DNA of 64,000 nucleotides, from assembly GCF_016775155.1 (NCBI RefSeq), contig NZ_JAEUGD010000061.1, positions 1 through 64,000 of the forward strand. The letters run 5' to 3'. Positions 1 to 33,694 of the stretch are shown here, piece by piece (position 1 is the first letter of the stretch; each line of letters begins with the position of its first letter). The notes under the pieces are model-generated. The model worked only from the letters and a program-made list of their open reading frames with translations. It was not told the origin of the DNA and made no database searches. This DNA is from Fulvivirga marina. GTDB taxonomy: Bacteria > Bacteroidota > Bacteroidia > Cytophagales > Cyclobacteriaceae. Position numbers and translations under genes: made by a program.

Positions 1-2
1 AA

Positions 3-38
3 AAAGGCTGGCGATAGAATTTTCGCCAGCCTTTCTTT
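3..38. terminator. Bidirectional intrinsic terminator
   Basis: A 12-bp perfect stem (positions 3-14 pairing with 23-34) encloses an 8-nt loop. It is followed by T-rich sequence on the + strand and by a run of five T on the - strand. It lies about 50 bp past the stop of the leader-peptide gene on the - strand and most likely ends that transcript. Confidence 0.85.
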
Positions 39-85
39 TGAGAGACTTTTGAGACAGCCTCTTTTTTGTTTCTAACCTGCGCTTC

Positions 86-337
86 TTATTGACACGGACT
101 GCAATGCAAAGGCTCATTGGTATCACATGGTCTATGCGTATACCAATTGTTAGGGTTACAAGAGTCATATGTACCTCCTCCTCCGCCACCGCCGCCATCG
201 TCAGGGCATCCTGCCCACCCAGCGGTACATCCATAGGTAAGATACCCTCCTTTAATGGTTTGAGCATTATCACTCAGTTCTTGAGTAACAAAGCTTTTAA
301 CTTTTAGCTCTCCAATTTTAAGTTTCTTTTTCTTCAT
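86..337 (-). CDS. Double-glycine leader peptide, putative RiPP/bacteriocin precursor
   Basis: An 83-residue precursor. Residues 1-31 form a lysine-rich leader (MKKKKLKIGELKVKSFVT, then acidic/polar residues) ending in the Gly-Gly at 30-31 that C39 peptidases cut after. The KVKSFVT segment resembles leaders of pinensin-type Bacteroidota lanthipeptides, from memory of that family. The predicted core is 52 residues, with six Cys, several Thr/Ser, and an uninterrupted run of eight Gly in its middle. The even Cys number would suit three disulfides, or thioether rings if a modifying enzyme exists elsewhere. The C39 exporter gene lies 161 bp upstream on the same strand, so export and leader removal by that protein is a strong inference. 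No LanB, LanC or LanM-type enzyme lies in the window. Confidence 0.8.
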   Translation of the reverse strand: MKKKKLKIGELKVKSFVTQELSDNAQTIKGGYLTYGCTAGWAGCPDDGGGGGGGGTYDSCNPNNWYTHRPCDTNEPLHCSPCQ

Positions 338-498: not shown

Positions 499-2691
499 TT
501 AATTACCCAGCTCAAGCTGGTTTTTAACAAGGCGATAGTAATCCCCTCTCTTCGCAGTCAACTCTGCATGTGTACCTATTTCAGTAATATGACCTTTATC
601 GAGTACAATGATCTGATCTGCATTCTTTACTGTACTTAAACGGTGTGCCACTACAATTACAGTACGACCTACAAAAAAGCGGTCAAGGTTTTCCATGATA
701 ACTTTTTCGTTATTAGCATCTAGGGCATTAGTAGCCTCGTCAAAGTATATGTATTCAGGACTTTTGTACACCGCTCTGGCGATCAGTATTCTCTGTTTTT
801 GCCCCTGACTCAAGCCATGCCCATCATTACCGATCTTGGTGTTGTACCCCAATGGAAGTGACTCTATGAACTCCTGTATGTTGGCGACCTTTACAGCATA
901 GAGTAGCTTTTCTTTATTGATATAGTCATCCTTAATCGATATATTCTTTGCTATGGTATCAGAGAATATAAATCCATCTTGCAATACAGCCCCACATTTA
1001 TCTCTCCATAATCTGTTACTATAGTTATTCAAATTAATATCACCAAGCCTGATCTCGCCCTGCGAAGGCTCGTAAAACTTAAGCAAGAGCTTAACCAAAG
1101 TTGTTTTTCCGCTTCCACTAGCCCCTACAATAGCAGTAACTTTGCCTTCTGGAATTTCAAGACTAATATCCTTTAAGGCATACTCCGAATGAGGGCCTTC
1201 ATACTGGAAAGATACATTGTCCAATTTTAAGGATTTATCTTCAGGGAAGATAGTAATTTTCTCTTCGTTGATATCCTCTTCATCTTCCTGACCATGAATT
1301 TCTCCAAGCCTTTCCAAGCTTATCTTTGCATCCTGCGCCGTATGGATAAAGCCTACCAACTGATTAATGGGAGCGTTCAACTGGCCTATGATATACTGGA
1401 TGGCCAACATCATACCCAGTGTAATATCTCCATCAATAACAGCCTTTGCTGCCAAAAACGTTATTACAATATTTTTAAGCTCATTGATAAATGAAGAACC
1501 GGCCTCCTGGTATTGGTTCAGGGCCAGCCCACTAATACTTACTTTGAACAGTTTTGCCTGTATCCTCTCCCACTCCCAACGCTTTTGCTTTTCGCTATTA
1601 TGCAACTTAATTTCCTGCATACCAGTAATCAACTGGATTAGGTTACTTTGGTTGCTTGACATCTGATCAAAGCGTTTGTAATCCAGATCTCGCCTCTTCT
1701 TCATAAAGATCATGATCCAAGCCATGTAAATAGCACTACCTATAAAAAAGATCGTGAAGATCTTTAAATCATAAACGGCCAGCACAACCCCAAAAATAAT
1801 GAGGTTGATGAATGAGAAAAGAATATTTAAAGTTGAAGAGGTCAGAAATGATTCTATCCTGCTATGATCACCAATTCGCTGAAGCAAATCACCAATCATT
1901 TTGGTATCGAAGAACGAAACTGGAAGTCGCATCAGCTTGATCAGAAAATCAGAAAGAATAGAAATGTTTATCCTTGTACCCAAATGAAGCAGTATCCAGC
2001 CCCTTATAAACTCAACGGCTGTTCTACTAAAGAATAACATCAACTGAGCTATCAAAATGAGGGTAACAAAGTTCAGGTCCTGATTTTGTATCCCTATATC
2101 AACAATAGACTGCGTTAAAAAAGGAAAAATCAGCTGAAGTATACTTCCCACCAGCATACCTATAAAAAGCTGGGTAATGAACTTCCTGTAAGGTCTTAAG
2201 TACTTGAAAAGAAAATGAAACCCTGACTTATTTACTTTTTCATCTTCAGTAGTATAGAAGTCCGGCGCTGGCTCCATCAAAAGAACAACACCTATCTCCT
2301 GACCGTTATCCGTATCGCTTAGCCAGCCATCAAGGAACTCTTCCTTGGTCAATCTAACCAGTCCATGCGCTGGATCAGAGACGAGCACGTAATTCTTCTT
2401 AAACCCATAGACCACTATAAAGTGCTGTTGTCTCCAGTGGGCTATAAAAGGCGTGGGAGCTTCCTCCTTTAATTTATCAAAGGGAATCTTGGCCGCGAGG
2501 GTACGAAAACCAATAGACTCCGCAGCATCACTAATACCCAACAAAGAAACCCCCTCTCTGGTAATATAGCTCTTATCCCTGAGTGTTTGTAGGGAGTAAC
2601 TTTTGCCATAATATTTGGCAATTATCCTTAAACAGGTAGGACCGCAGTCCATGGCATCCAGTTGTCGATAATGTGGGAATTTCTTTAGCAT
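499..2691 (-). CDS. Peptidase-C39 domain ABC exporter (bacteriocin-type)
   Basis: A 730-residue inner-membrane ABC exporter that should cleave double-glycine leaders and export the peptide. Residues 1-140 are a C39 cysteine peptidase with catalytic Cys16 (in AMDCGPTC), His90 and Asp106, all intact. A six-helix transmembrane domain spans about 165-450. The nucleotide-binding domain has Walker A at 523-531 (GASGSGKTT), signature LSQGQ at 627-631, Walker B ending in FDEAT at 650-654 and a switch His near AHRLS. The length matches LanT/ComA/SunT-type transporters. It is the only transport gene next to the leader peptide at 86-337. No membrane-fusion partner is adjacent; the one at 4975-6225 belongs to a different operon. 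Confidence 0.93.
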   Translation of the reverse strand: MLKKFPHYRQLDAMDCGPTCLRIIAKYYGKSYSLQTLRDKSYITREGVSLLGISDAAESIGFRTLAAKIPFDKLKEEAPTPFIAHWRQQHFIVVYGFKKNYVLVSDPAHGLVRLTKEEFLDGWLSDTDNGQEIGVVLLMEPAPDFYTTEDEKVNKSGFHFLFKYLRPYRKFITQLFIGMLVGSILQLIFPFLTQSIVDIGIQNQDLNFVTLILIAQLMLFFSRTAVEFIRGWILLHLGTRINISILSDFLIKLMRLPVSFFDTKMIGDLLQRIGDHSRIESFLTSSTLNILFSFINLIIFGVVLAVYDLKIFTIFFIGSAIYMAWIMIFMKKRRDLDYKRFDQMSSNQSNLIQLITGMQEIKLHNSEKQKRWEWERIQAKLFKVSISGLALNQYQEAGSSFINELKNIVITFLAAKAVIDGDITLGMMLAIQYIIGQLNAPINQLVGFIHTAQDAKISLERLGEIHGQEDEEDINEEKITIFPEDKSLKLDNVSFQYEGPHSEYALKDISLEIPEGKVTAIVGASGSGKTTLVKLLLKFYEPSQGEIRLGDINLNNYSNRLWRDKCGAVLQDGFIFSDTIAKNISIKDDYINKEKLLYAVKVANIQEFIESLPLGYNTKIGNDGHGLSQGQKQRILIARAVYKSPEYIYFDEATNALDANNEKVIMENLDRFFVGRTVIVVAHRLSTVKNADQIIVLDKGHITEIGTHAELTAKRGDYYRLVKNQLELGN

Positions 2692-2988: not shown

Positions 2989-4143
2989 ATGATGAAAAAA
3001 CTTTTATCAGTATTATCTATCGGGCTTTATCTGATAGTATTTACAGCATGTGATGAAAATGAAGTAAAACCCGAGTCTTCAAATCAAAGTCAAGATCCAT
3101 CATTGGACGCTGTGGCTCAAAATATTGCTGAGTTATTAAATGAAGATGAATCTTTCAACAGTTTTACAGCCGTGCTCGAGCAACAGGCTGTAGGTATTAA
3201 GCTGGCTGAAGTACTTACAATGATTGACGCTAATCAAAAAGATGGCTCTTCTCTTTCTAACTTAAAAGCTTCAGCTCAATACTATGACAATCAACTAAAA
3301 ACAAATGAAGCCCCTGAAGTGGTAGAGATACCCGAGGTATGGCTTTATAAGCCTGAAGGAGCAAGTGTAAACAAGAAGGATATCTTAGTGGCTTACCCTC
3401 CTACTGGCAAAGAAGAAGACTGGACAAAGGTAAAGGCTTATACGCTTGACAAAAAAGTAGTATACCTAGACCCTAACAAAGAGCCTAATGTACCTGTAGT
3501 AGTTGTAGATAACCATGGCTTTGAAGCATTCAAAGTGGAAGTTAGCTATATCAACAAGCAATTGAAGGAAGCTGGTTTCCAGAAAAAGATGTTATCATCG
3601 AAAGTTACATCCAAAACTGCTGCTGCCGGTTTAGAAACTACAAAACTGAACAAAATCAGACTTAACGATGATGAAGAGCCATGGATAAGCGGTTCTGCTG
3701 AAATTTATGCTGTTACCTCTGGTATAAGAAACAGCAGCAATGAGGCTGAGGTTGCTGTTATTCCTATGTACTACCTTGACAAAGAAGACAAAGACTATTA
3801 CCCTAATCAGATTATGCTTTTCTGGGATGACTACGCTTACCAGGCTGCAAACATTCAGCTTTTCGAAAAAGATGACAACCATAACTATCAGGACATGGTG
3901 TCTATGCTTGTGAAGGAATTAAGTTCACTAGCAGGAACTTTAAGCGGACACACTTGGATCACTGCATTAGGAGTAATTGGTGCAGCTATAGTAGATGCTA
4001 TACCTGCCAGCTTCTGGACTAATGATGATGATTATGTTGACTCTTTCTATACCATAGAAAAAAATAAGTACTACACTAACTATTACGGAGCAAGAGGAAA
4101 TGCAAAAGTTAATATGAGCCCTTATTTTATACCTGCCAACTAA
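2989..4143 (+). CDS. Surface lipoprotein of unknown function
   Basis: A 384-residue predicted lipoprotein: a hydrophobic signal peptide ends in the lipobox FTAC, with Cys21 as the lipidation site, followed by an acidic, Ser-rich linker. The mature part has no catalytic motif that I recognise. It contains a segment around residues 110-175 with WLYKP, VAYPP and PVVVVDNHG, and a C-terminal stretch with YPNQIMLFW and TNDDDYVDSFYT. The overall pattern recalls a family of secreted proteins annotated as DUF3103-like, but I hold this weakly. It is transcribed away from the bacteriocin exporter behind a strong palindrome. A terminator follows 24 bp after the stop, so it is probably monocistronic. Confidence 0.8.
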   Translation: MMKKLLSVLSIGLYLIVFTACDENEVKPESSNQSQDPSLDAVAQNIAELLNEDESFNSFTAVLEQQAVGIKLAEVLTMIDANQKDGSSLSNLKASAQYYDNQLKTNEAPEVVEIPEVWLYKPEGASVNKKDILVAYPPTGKEEDWTKVKAYTLDKKVVYLDPNKEPNVPVVVVDNHGFEAFKVEVSYINKQLKEAGFQKKMLSSKVTSKTAAAGLETTKLNKIRLNDDEEPWISGSAEIYAVTSGIRNSSNEAEVAVIPMYYLDKEDKDYYPNQIMLFWDDYAYQAANIQLFEKDDNHNYQDMVSMLVKELSSLAGTLSGHTWITALGVIGAAIVDAIPASFWTNDDDYVDSFYTIEKNKYYTNYYGARGNAKVNMSPYFIPAN

Positions 4144-11183: not shown

Positions 11184-11582
11184 TCACGCATCTGCAGCCC
11201 TTTCAAATATTTCTTTGATCTTAGATTTAGGTAGCACTTTCTGCCCTGTAAAGCCTACAGCTACCAGTCTATTTTCTACACGGGCCCTATAAGAGCATAA
11301 CAACTCATTTTTCTCAATACTTTCAACAGTAGCTTCTATGCTTAAAGTTTCACCGACAAATGCAGGGCCTCTGTGATTTATTTCAAGTCTTGTTCCAATC
11401 CCCTCCTCTGTTTCCTCCTTCATCTCCAAAATAAAAAGCCGTGTAGACCATTCTATCTCTCTGGCTAAAGAAAAGGTAGAACAAACTTCATGTACCACTT
11501 CACCGCTAAAAGCAGCTACATCCTGCTTTGTAATTTGAACAGTATAAAGCTTTTTATCACCAGGCTTAAAGATAGGTTTCAT
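11184..11582 (-). CDS. Hotdog-fold acyl-CoA thioesterase-like protein
   Basis: A 132-residue single hotdog domain resembling the fluoroacetyl-CoA thioesterase (FlK)-type family. Marks include KPGDKKLYTVQ at the start, a polar helix-start segment VVHEVCSTFSLAREIEW, and EINHRGPAFVGETLSIEATV followed by YRARVENRLVAVGFTGQ. It probably hydrolyses a small acyl-CoA; the substrate cannot be read from the sequence. It lies 4 bp downstream of tsaD on the same strand, so the two are probably cotranscribed. Confidence 0.8.
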   Translation of the reverse strand: MKPIFKPGDKKLYTVQITKQDVAAFSGEVVHEVCSTFSLAREIEWSTRLFILEMKEETEEGIGTRLEINHRGPAFVGETLSIEATVESIEKNELLCSYRARVENRLVAVGFTGQKVLPKSKIKEIFERAADA

Positions 11583-11586
11583 TATA

Positions 11587-12591
11587 TCATATTTTCATTC
11601 GCGCCTCCGGACTCACATCCAATGGGCTAAAATGTCCAGTGAGATATTTATAATGTGCAGCCATTGCAATCATACCTGCATTATCAGTACAATATTGAAA
11701 ATCAGGAATATAAACATTCCACCTTTTTTCATTGGCAAGACTTGTAAGCTCAGCTCTTAACCCACTATTAGCAGAAACACCACCGGCAATAGCAATTTCC
11801 TTAATACCAGTTTCATTACTGGCTCTTTTTAATTTCTGCATAAGCATTTTCACCAAACTATACTGGAGGCTCGCACAAATATCATTAACGTTCTTTTTTA
11901 CAAAATCAGGATCTTTTGCCTTATTATCTCTTAAAAAATAAAGAAATGCTGTTTTAATACCACTAAAAGAAAAGTTAAGTCCCTGCATTTCCGTATCCGG
12001 GAACTCATAAGCTTTGGGATTGCCCTCCTTGGCATATTTATCTATTAATGGGCCTCCTGGATAAGGAAACTCCAAGAGTTTAGCACATTTATCAAACGCT
12101 TCTCCTACGGCATCATCCTGAGTCTCACCAATCACCTCCATTTCAAGAAAATCATTAACCAAAACTATTTGGGTATGCCCTCCACTTACTGTCAGACAGA
12201 GAAAAGGGAAACGCGGCTTAGGGTCATCAATAAAATGAGCCAGTATATGTGCCTGCATGTGATTAACCTCAATGAGCGGTATATTTAAACCCATAGCCAT
12301 TGACTTAGCAAATGAAGTTCCTACCAACAATGCTCCAAGTAACCCCGGCCCACGGGTAAAAGCTATTGCGTTAAGGTCACCCATATTAACCCCAGCATCA
12401 TCCATAGCAGTTTTCACCACAGGTACTATATTTTGTTGGTGCGCTCTGGAAGCCAGTTCGGGAACTACTCCTCCATATTTTTTGTGTACTGATTGCGTTG
12501 CAATTATATTATTGACTACTTTGCCATTTTTAATAATTGCAGCGGATGTCTCATCGCAAGATGATTCTATGGCAAGTATGGTAGGCTTCAT
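11587..12591 (-). CDS. tsaD: tRNA N6-adenosine threonylcarbamoyltransferase TsaD
   Basis: A 334-residue essential enzyme that transfers threonylcarbamoyl to A37 of ANN-decoding tRNAs together with TsaB and TsaE. It has the ASKHA fold start ILAIESSCDETSAAI, the metal ligands His111 and His115 in NHMQAH, the glycine-rich TVSGGHTQIV, and the C-terminal IAGGVSANSGLR and CTDNAGMIAMAA motifs. Length is normal. Its ATG is only 12 bp from the proposed start of tamB on the other strand, so each promoter must lie inside or at the edge of the neighbouring gene. Confidence 0.97.
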   Translation of the reverse strand: MKPTILAIESSCDETSAAIIKNGKVVNNIIATQSVHKKYGGVVPELASRAHQQNIVPVVKTAMDDAGVNMGDLNAIAFTRGPGLLGALLVGTSFAKSMAMGLNIPLIEVNHMQAHILAHFIDDPKPRFPFLCLTVSGGHTQIVLVNDFLEMEVIGETQDDAVGEAFDKCAKLLEFPYPGGPLIDKYAKEGNPKAYEFPDTEMQGLNFSFSGIKTAFLYFLRDNKAKDPDFVKKNVNDICASLQYSLVKMLMQKLKRASNETGIKEIAIAGGVSANSGLRAELTSLANEKRWNVYIPDFQYCTDNAGMIAMAAHYKYLTGHFSPLDVSPEARMKI

Positions 12592-18586: not shown

Positions 18587-18640
18587 TTGTTTACCTATAA
18601 CTAATGAATTAGCTTCGCCCAAATTGCCTAAAAGTAAAAA

Positions 18641-19050
18641 ATGCAAGCTGGCTTATCGTTCTTCGGAATACCGAAGGAAGGAAAGTCCGGGCAACACAGA
18701 GCATCGTACTTCCTAACGGGAAGGCTTCTCGGTTCTACCGAGGGGACAGACAGTGCCACAGAAAACAAACTACCTCTGATTACTATCAGCGGAAAAGGTG
18801 AAAAGGTGAGGTAAGAGCTCACCGCCCCGAAGGTAACTAAGGGGGCACGGTAAACCTTACGAGTTGAAAGATCAAATAAGTCACGCTAGCCTGCCTAGGC
18901 GGCTGTCAGGCTGCTCGTCTGACTTTCTTCGGAAATAAGCGTGATGGGTAGATCGCTTTTGATCTCAACGGTGACGTTGAGGCTAGATAAATGATAAGCC
19001 ATCCCGACTTGTCGGGAGGACAGAACCCGGCTTACAGGCTTGCATTTTTT
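18641..19050 (+). ncRNA. rnpB: RNase P RNA
   Basis: A type A RNase P RNA of about 400 nt. Recognisable pieces in order are the P1 5' strand GCAAGCTGGCTTATCG, the conserved GGAAAGTCCGGGC, ACAGACAGTGCCACAGAAAA, GGTGAAAAGGTGAGGTAAGAGCTCACC and GGTAAACC. The closing strand CCCGGCTTACAGGCTTGC runs into a T7 tract that also ends transcription. The 5' and 3' ends pair, which sets the boundaries within a few bases. Confidence 0.95.
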
Positions 19051-33134: not shown

Positions 33135-33606
33135 AATTCAAGTTTTAAGTATTTCTCAGAGTTTTGTTTGAGAGTGTTAAACGATTATAATTTATAGTTA
33201 AAATTAATTAAAAGTTTCAAATTCAATGGATAAGGTCGCAATATTTGAATCTTATCCGATTTATAAAAATCTTAAAAGACTTATCCGGGCAGCATATTTA
33301 GTATAATTTTTCTGAACATTAAACATTCTCGCCCGTTAAAATTCAATGTGAGGGGTTTTATTATCGATTGGATCTGAGCAGGTTGAAAAATTTGTATAAC
33401 ACAATAAACCCAACCGCCCGGCTTTATATCAACATTTTAGCATAAAGAAAAGGGAATATAACTAATATTCTAATTTTCTTTCCATACTACCCTCACTGTT
33501 AGTCTTTTACTCCTTTCGAACCTAATTTTTTTCAACTCCGTCCTCCAGGTTCATTTTAAAGATGAAGGGTGTTTAGCACACCAGTTTCTTTCATCCATAT
33601 GTCAAG
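33135..33606. other. Long intergenic region upstream of exbB
   Basis: 472 bp with no credible gene. It contains three copies of the 7-mer CTTATCC or its complement near exbB: GGATAAG at 33228-33234, and CTTATCCG at 33251-33258 and 33280-33287. The first two form a 7-16-7 inverted repeat. The rest is AT-rich and featureless to my reading. No exact -7 box was found for exbB. Confidence 0.45.
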
Positions 33607-33694
33607 CGGAGAGGAAGGGATTCGAACCCCCGGTACCCTTTTGGGGCACACTCACTTTCCAGGCGAGCACCTTCGACCACTCGGTCACCTCTCC
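33607..33694 (-). tRNA. tRNA-Ser (GGA)
   Basis: An 88-nt class II tRNA. The acceptor stem is GGAGAGG/CCTCTCC, the D-arm is TGACCGAGTGGTCGAAGG, the anticodon loop is CTGGAAA with anticodon GGA, and there is a long variable arm (TGTGCCCCAAAAGGGTACC). The T-arm is GGGGGTTCGAATCCC. The discriminator is G and the CCA end is not encoded. A TATGTTTG box at 33753-33760 is the likely promoter. Confidence 0.96.

Follow-up and report, generated by a model that had tools for sequence, protein, structure and literature searches.

A putative pinensin-type lanthipeptide precursor with an oligoglycine run in Fulvivirga marina and a possible library of scattered class I precursors

The locus

The window, i.e. 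the whole stretch of 64,000 nt analysed here, starts at base 1 of contig C58 (NZ_JAEUGD010000061.1) of Fulvivirga marina (genome G000). Its first genes, on the minus strand, are a short precursor gene and, upstream of it, an exporter gene (Table 1). After Gly31, the open reading frame encodes 52 residues with six Cys and one run of eight Gly, exactly the double-glycine leader and core described in a first-pass annotation of the sequence, and the C39 exporter that the annotation placed beside the gene is present as well. The Ser, Thr and Cys residues of the core follow in the order T3 C6 T7 C13 (Gly8) T25 S28 C29 T36 C40 T42 C48 S49 C51. The suspected resemblance of the leader to the pinensin type is borne out by family NF038180 (leader_pinensin), which scores 42.3 bits (cut-off 24) over residues 4–31 and is the sole NCBIfam match of the peptide; a Pfam search at E <= 0.1 finds no family for it. 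The peptide combines the leader and the Ser/Thr/Cys core of a class I lanthipeptide precursor, and carries the NF038180 leader of pinensin-type systems. Cleavage after Gly31 is predicted from the Gly-Gly site and the C39 exporter.

The exporter contains Peptidase_C39, ABC membrane and ABC ATPase domains. It adjoins the peptide gene in four genomes of the same genus (G001, G004, G007 and G014) also. On its other side is a gene for a DUF3103 protein with a lipoprotein-like N terminus, as judged by eye, that is found beside the exporter in G014 and G001 (85–86% identity) and in G002 (62%); the 18-kb loci of G004 and G007 yielded no copy. It is possibly an immunity protein or an unrelated lipoprotein. 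The two RNA genes of the window are ordinary.

Table 1. Features of the window (positions on the forward strand)
Feature	Coordinates	Strand	Basis
IS element end with hairpin	1..64	.	near-identical copies at other contig ends
Precursor peptide gene (LanA-like), 83 aa, ATG start	86..337	-	sequence; NF038180 match; orthologues; purifying selection
Core peptide, 52 residues	89..244	-	sequence; 6/6 Cys with private N-side Ser/Thr
Gly8 run, core residues 17–24, proposed flexible hinge	173..196	-	sequence; orthologue length variation
Leader peptide, residues 1–31, Gly-Gly (Gly30-Gly31) at end, pinensin leader type	245..337	-	NF038180
Peptidase C39-domain ABC exporter, 730 aa, proposed leader protease and exporter	499..2691	-	PF03412 1.5e-34, PF00664, PF00005
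DUF3103 protein	2989..4143	+	PF11301 1.4e-74
RNase P RNA (class A)	18640..19050	+	
tRNA-Ser(gga)	33606..33694	-	

Conservation of the peptide

Orthologues with leader and core occur in 5 of 97 other genomes, at identities of 91, 85, 80, 75 and 63%. Four belong to the same genus (G014, G001, G004 and G007) and one, G027, to the same family. A profile search of genome contigs with the core alignment, in which records of the source or of very near genomes may be omitted, returns only Fulvivirga sediminis 2943 and F. kasyanovii JCM 16186, both relatives of the same genus. A leaderless, Cys-depleted remnant of the core is seen in G033, of another genus (L062, about 11420–11590). Across the six sequences (own and five orthologues), 42 positions are invariant, including all six Cys and core residues Thr3, Thr7, Ser28, Thr36 and Thr42. 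The dN/dS ratio (NG86) is 0.027 between the own gene and that of G014 and 0.072 between G004 and G007; synonymous changes are saturated between the own gene and those of G001 and G004, for which no ratio is given. Low dN/dS together with orthologues indicates that the gene is real and more than a chance reading frame.

The glycine run is 8 (own), 8, 8, 7 and 6 residues long in the five copies of the genus, and is interrupted in G027 (GGGTGGDGGG). Its codons are mixed, so a simple slippage repeat is not favoured. Variation of length within the genus, interruption in G027 and mixed codons fit a spacer whose exact length would be of little importance. The Gly-rich composition, singled out as odd in the first-pass annotation, is not unique in the family: runs of at least four Gly are found in 8 of 154 unique leader-bearing cores, the own core and its G014 orthologue counted.

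Contig end and modification enzymes

The same annotation had put the end of the window 85 bp past the gene. The distance is right, and the end is the physical end of contig C58, not an arbitrary edge. It consists of the end of an IS element, and many contigs of this assembly terminate in the same way. On contig C49 there is a related copy, probably IS1182-like, that has both its ends and encodes a DUF772/DDE transposase. Contig C63 terminates in the other end of an IS of this type, followed, going inward, by a leader peptide gene and genes for a TPR-histidine kinase, a LuxR-type regulator, HlyD, LanB, an elimination-domain protein and LanC. The element appears to be bordered by inverted flanks: those of the C49 copy, which serves as a positive control, match each other over 13 nt. 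Those of C58 pair best with C63, over 8 nt (next best, 6 nt), a modest support since both flanks are A/T-rich.

Gene order in relatives points the same way. In G014, a single contig carries the peptide, two further leader-like ORFs, kinase, regulator, HlyD, LanB, elimination protein and LanC (the latter as two overlapping pieces in tblastn). In G001, the part from peptide to regulator, with at least two further leader-like ORFs, is on one contig and HlyD, LanB, elimination protein and LanC are on another (C253). In G004 and G007, exporter, peptide, HlyD, LanB (PF04738), elimination protein (PF14028) and LanC run along one strand; Pfam domains of the enzyme cluster were scanned for the G000 and G004 copies. 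From synteny with G014 and G001 and the IS flanks, rather than from reads, the synthetase very probably lies immediately left of the window, and the IS end probably breaks the assembly and separates the gene from its LanB/LanC cluster on C63. The first-pass annotation was right to suspect modification genes to the left. Homologues of a cognate LanB, with glutamylation and elimination parts, lie beside the orthologue in G004, G007 and G014 and, in the own genome, probably across the contig break.

The LanB of C63 (994 aa) matches PF04738 only, has no elimination domain of its own and matches the solved LanB structure 6ec7 (E 1e-17). The elimination-domain protein (344 aa) matches PF14028. PF04738 and PF14028 are thus in separate genes, which is the split LanB of pinensin-type systems. 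LanC (648 aa) matches PF05147 (1.9e-60). Among NCBIfam models it scores best with TIGR03897, of class II LanM, at 259 bits (under the cut-off of 304). Alignment to LicM2 (the best solved match), human LanC-like proteins and NisC identifies the segments WCHGAPG and CHG, which fit the C-gap-CH zinc triad of LanC outlined in PMC10352776. The zinc motif (Cys ... Cys-His) expected of a class I lanthipeptide system is in place.

Two further precursor-like genes stand beside the cluster of the own genome. One (C63:1136747-1136821; L063 17748-17822), the third leader-like gene there, contains one TAG stop and scores 19.5 bits with NF038180, below cut-off. The other, a second precursor (L063 17954-18112), has a single Cys in its core, against two in the G014 and G001 copies. 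These neighbouring precursors may be decaying while the gene at the end of C58 is intact.

A family of scattered leaders

Pinensin leaders are found in 16 of 98 genomes (own included), so that leader homologues with a GG cut site, whose absence from related genomes the first-pass annotation would have counted against the peptide, do exist. All 16 have LanB, which is present in 25 of the 98. As the 98 relatives share ancestry, 16 of 16 does not stand for 16 independent events (8 genera). Among the nine genomes with LanB and no leader, seven have a high-scoring PF04738 match (best 361–542 bits) and two, G053 and G055, weak partial matches. The best single PF04738 piece in most leader genomes scores about 41–128 bits, and G002 and G013 hold one of each kind. 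LanC is over cut-off in 15 of the 16 leader genomes, the exception being G050 (1300 contigs). Six members of the genus are leaderless; five have no LanC and one has a match under cut-off. Of 296 genomes drawn evenly from the phylum, three have leaders: the own genome, G128 (one match, 25.1 bits) and G375 (four, 25–31 bits). The latter two have no LanB (PF04738) match, which means that the enzyme escaped detection or that the leader model detects a related family in these genomes.

Leaders are often numerous and dispersed. The own genome has 14 matches over cut-off on 10 contigs and one LanB over cut-off, that of C63. There are 31 matches in G002, 19 in each of G014 and G033, and 6 in G049; G004 and G007 have none besides the orthologue (E <= 0.001). 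G027 has at least 87, of which 81 are over cut-off (a lower bound, with 150 of 219 candidates scored), and one LanB gene. Of 84 matches fetched from this genome, 83 are on the main contig, at 58 sites more than 5 kb apart, and the site nearest to the LanB cluster is 15 kb away. The G027 orthologue of the peptide is itself unlinked to LanB and exporter. Within five genomes, mean leader identity is 55–66% around the SFxT motif versus 7–8% for the first 14 core residues. On the G027 counts and these identities, the precursors are dispersed, their leaders conserved and their cores variable, with one synthetase gene.

The exporter is far more conserved than LanB. From the own genome to relatives, exporter identity versus LanB identity is 97.5 versus 76% (G014), 93 versus 66% (G002), 79 versus 48% (G027) and 80 versus 48% (G049), a pattern that would fit a single exporter having to recognise every leader. 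Five LanC-like matches, of which two are strong, are present in G027, and G002 has a second LanB, so that the case for a single enzyme line is best for LanB in G000, G014 and G027. Additional LanC-like genes are near scattered leader peptides in G027 (C1:4165987-4167063) and in G001 (C186:9663-10481), with no LanB match within 1.5 Mb and on that contig, respectively. They might be dedicated cyclases for the nearby peptides.

Pairing of Ser/Thr with Cys

Lanthionine formation would leave a trace in the cores. As a measure of pairing, each Cys was given its own private Ser/Thr located 2–12 residues to the N-side, and the null was obtained by shuffling the non-Cys residues within each core. All six Cys are matched in the own, G014, G001, G004 and G007 cores and five of six in G027, where core residue 49 is Glu and leaves Cys51 unmatched. 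For the own core alone the order of Ser/Thr and Cys is weak evidence (P 0.047 by shuffling). Over 150 unique leader-bearing cores from six genomes, 619 of 635 Cys are matched versus 484 +/- 8 after shuffling, and none of 500 shuffles reaches 619. In G027 alone, the numbers are 289 of 300 versus 225 +/- 6, with 68 of 79 cores fully matched versus 26.8 +/- 3.4, and pairing in this genome is far above the null under four other distance settings too.

The excess is specific in direction and residue. Partners on the C-side of the same 150 cores number 407 versus 405 in the null. Pooled counts for Asp/Glu, Ala/Gly and Asn/Gln/His/Pro partners are below the null, single genomes being slightly above it by z 0.5 at most. 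In the G033 subset the C-side count also exceeds its null (49 versus 43.3; 7 of 500 shuffles). Control windows of 40 residues from long ORFs give 126 of 234 versus 132, and for other small ORFs with Cys the count is 2941 of 4387 versus 2850 (z 3.7), which is 3% above the null as compared with 28% in the leader set.

Leader matches sampled were 28 of 31 in G002, 15 of 19 in G014, 12 of 19 in G033, 84 of 87 in G027, 14 of 14 in G000 and 6 of 6 in G049. Five peptides (two from G002, one from G000 and two from G027) in which no motif or cut site was recognised were dropped, and the 150 also exclude duplicates, Cys-free cores and those shorter than 8 aa. Core starts were assigned automatically, by taking the first GG, AG or GA downstream of the SFxT-like motif; in a few cases, such as one core of G002 and two of G033, the cut comes too soon. 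Several cores of G000, G014 and G002 are mutually orthologous and not independent. The N-side pairing is the trace expected from selection for lanthionine formation and suggests that the scattered peptides may be LANTHIPEPTIDE substrates; it does not assign a given peptide to a given enzyme.

Proposed product and alternative readings

The gene, its leader family, its neighbourhood in relatives, the enzyme domains and motifs, and conservation are observed directly, and they make it highly likely that the peptide is the precursor of a class I lanthipeptide of the pinensin type, whose six candidate thioether rings would lie on both sides of a glycine hinge. We infer chemistry, ring pattern, cleavage, activity and regulation of the product as follows. 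The leader would recruit the split LanB, whose 994-aa glutamylation part and 344-aa elimination part would dehydrate as many as seven core Ser/Thr with the help of glutamyl-tRNA. Class I peptides, Bacteroidota examples among them, were completely dehydrated when a producer's tRNA-Glu/GluRS pair was supplied (PMC9993889). The LanM-like LanC would then close as many as six (methyl)lanthionine rings. Cleavage after Gly31 would fall to the C39 domain of the adjoining ABC exporter, and the product would be exported with the HlyD-type adaptor as two ring-bearing halves on a flexible oligoglycine hinge. One possible reading of the rings, the real pattern not being predictable, is T3-C6, T7-C13, T25-C29, T36-C40, T42-C48 and S49-C51. 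The secreted peptide would most likely have an antagonistic or signalling role, under regulation by the two-component system.

The choice left by the first-pass annotation, an enzyme encoded elsewhere or an unmodified, disulfide-linked peptide, falls to the former, as LanB, elimination protein and LanC are on C63 in the own genome and beside the orthologue in G004 and G007. The latter would be a class II-type bacteriocin resembling bacteroidetocins, cleaved and exported by the C39 protein, while the LanB cluster would act on the neighbouring precursors alone. Such a reading, which accords with the exporter directly upstream, the even number of Cys and the location of the only LanB over cut-off on another contig of the own genome, is unlikely. 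An unmodified bacteriocin has no modification enzymes by its precursor, whereas LanB and LanC adjoin this gene in relatives; in G004 and G007 the peptide is the sole leader match of the genome at E <= 0.001 and sits inside the exporter–HlyD–LanB–LanC run. LanB accompanies the leader in every leader genome of the relatives set, and the family-wide pairing is specific as described. LanB linkage and pairing statistics rank the disulfide-only bacteriocin second.

It is still less probable that the cores undergo another chemistry, e.g. thiopeptide-like, with the PF14028 protein not performing elimination. PF14028/TIGR03891 proteins are common to thiopeptide systems, and Walker et al. 2020 consider a role of this kind for additional elimination-domain proteins that accompany full-length LanBs (PMC7268733). 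The LanB here, however, lacks its own elimination domain, which makes the PF14028 protein the expected second half, and a LanC with zinc motifs is present.

Relation to known systems

The peptide belongs with high probability to a type already known, the pinensin type, with an unusual hinged core. Pinensin from Chitinophaga pinensis shares the leader family NF038180, the split LanB and a LanC closest to class II LanM; Walker et al. 2020 likewise describe the pinensin family LanC as LanM-affine and its LanB as split (PMC7268733). Compared by length and composition only, the cores differ: pinensin A has 22 amino acids, according to PMC10112250, and the core here has 52 residues with six Cys and Gly8. 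Leader style, GG site, C39 protease and split LanB are also those of Bacteroidetes class I lanthipeptides, which have LxLxKx5L leaders, often GG-ended, C39 proteases and split LanB (PMC7268733). As stated there, that survey ranged within seven genes of a LanC-domain protein, so that scattered precursors as counted here would escape it. The PedA15 lanthipeptides of Pedobacter lusitanus NL19, likened to the present peptide by description only, are class I and from Bacteroidota, as here. According to PMC12328550, the PedA15.2 leader is removable by the GG protease LahT150, and a structural paper on PedA15 is cited with an 'unusual ring pattern' in its title. Bacteroidetocins combine a GG leader with a C39 exporter in Bacteroidetes (PMC6671954; PMC10352776) and are related to class IIa bacteriocins, whereas LanB and LanC accompany the gene described here.

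The closest parallel in organization is with prochlorosins (ProcM) and SyncM, where one synthetase serves many precursors with conserved leaders and variable cores; numbers of precursors per synthetase are 29 for prochlorosins and 79 for SyncM according to PMC12328550. Both are class II LanM systems, whereas the system here, in Bacteroidota, is of class I with split LanB and LanC. The prochlorosin family is defined by class II LanM and a Nif11-type leader, and the peptide lies outside it by having LanB/LanC and a pinensin leader. Co-occurrence and residue pairing suggest that one synthetase may modify the scattered precursors. It is reasonably probable that Fulvivirga and relatives possess a class I counterpart of prochlorosins, in which a single split LanB/LanC/C39 line would act in trans on hypervariable precursors scattered over the genome, the oligoglycine-hinged six-ring peptide being a conserved, usually cluster-linked member. 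No report of a class I system with one enzyme and many dispersed precursors was found in the literature searched, whose coverage is incomplete, with most subscription papers outside it; literature on pinensin and on Fulvivirga and Pedobacter lanthipeptides, of likewise incomplete coverage, contained no report of such a class I library.

Implications

An odd, orphan-looking peptide becomes assignable to the lanthipeptides, with a putative six-ring, hinged topology. The scattered family points to class I enzymes that would be naturally tolerant of their substrates, the comparable one-enzyme systems in the literature searched being class II. Scattered class I precursors would be missed by genome mining confined to gene clusters, and the Ser/Thr-before-Cys statistic may offer a means of recognising such libraries from sequence only.
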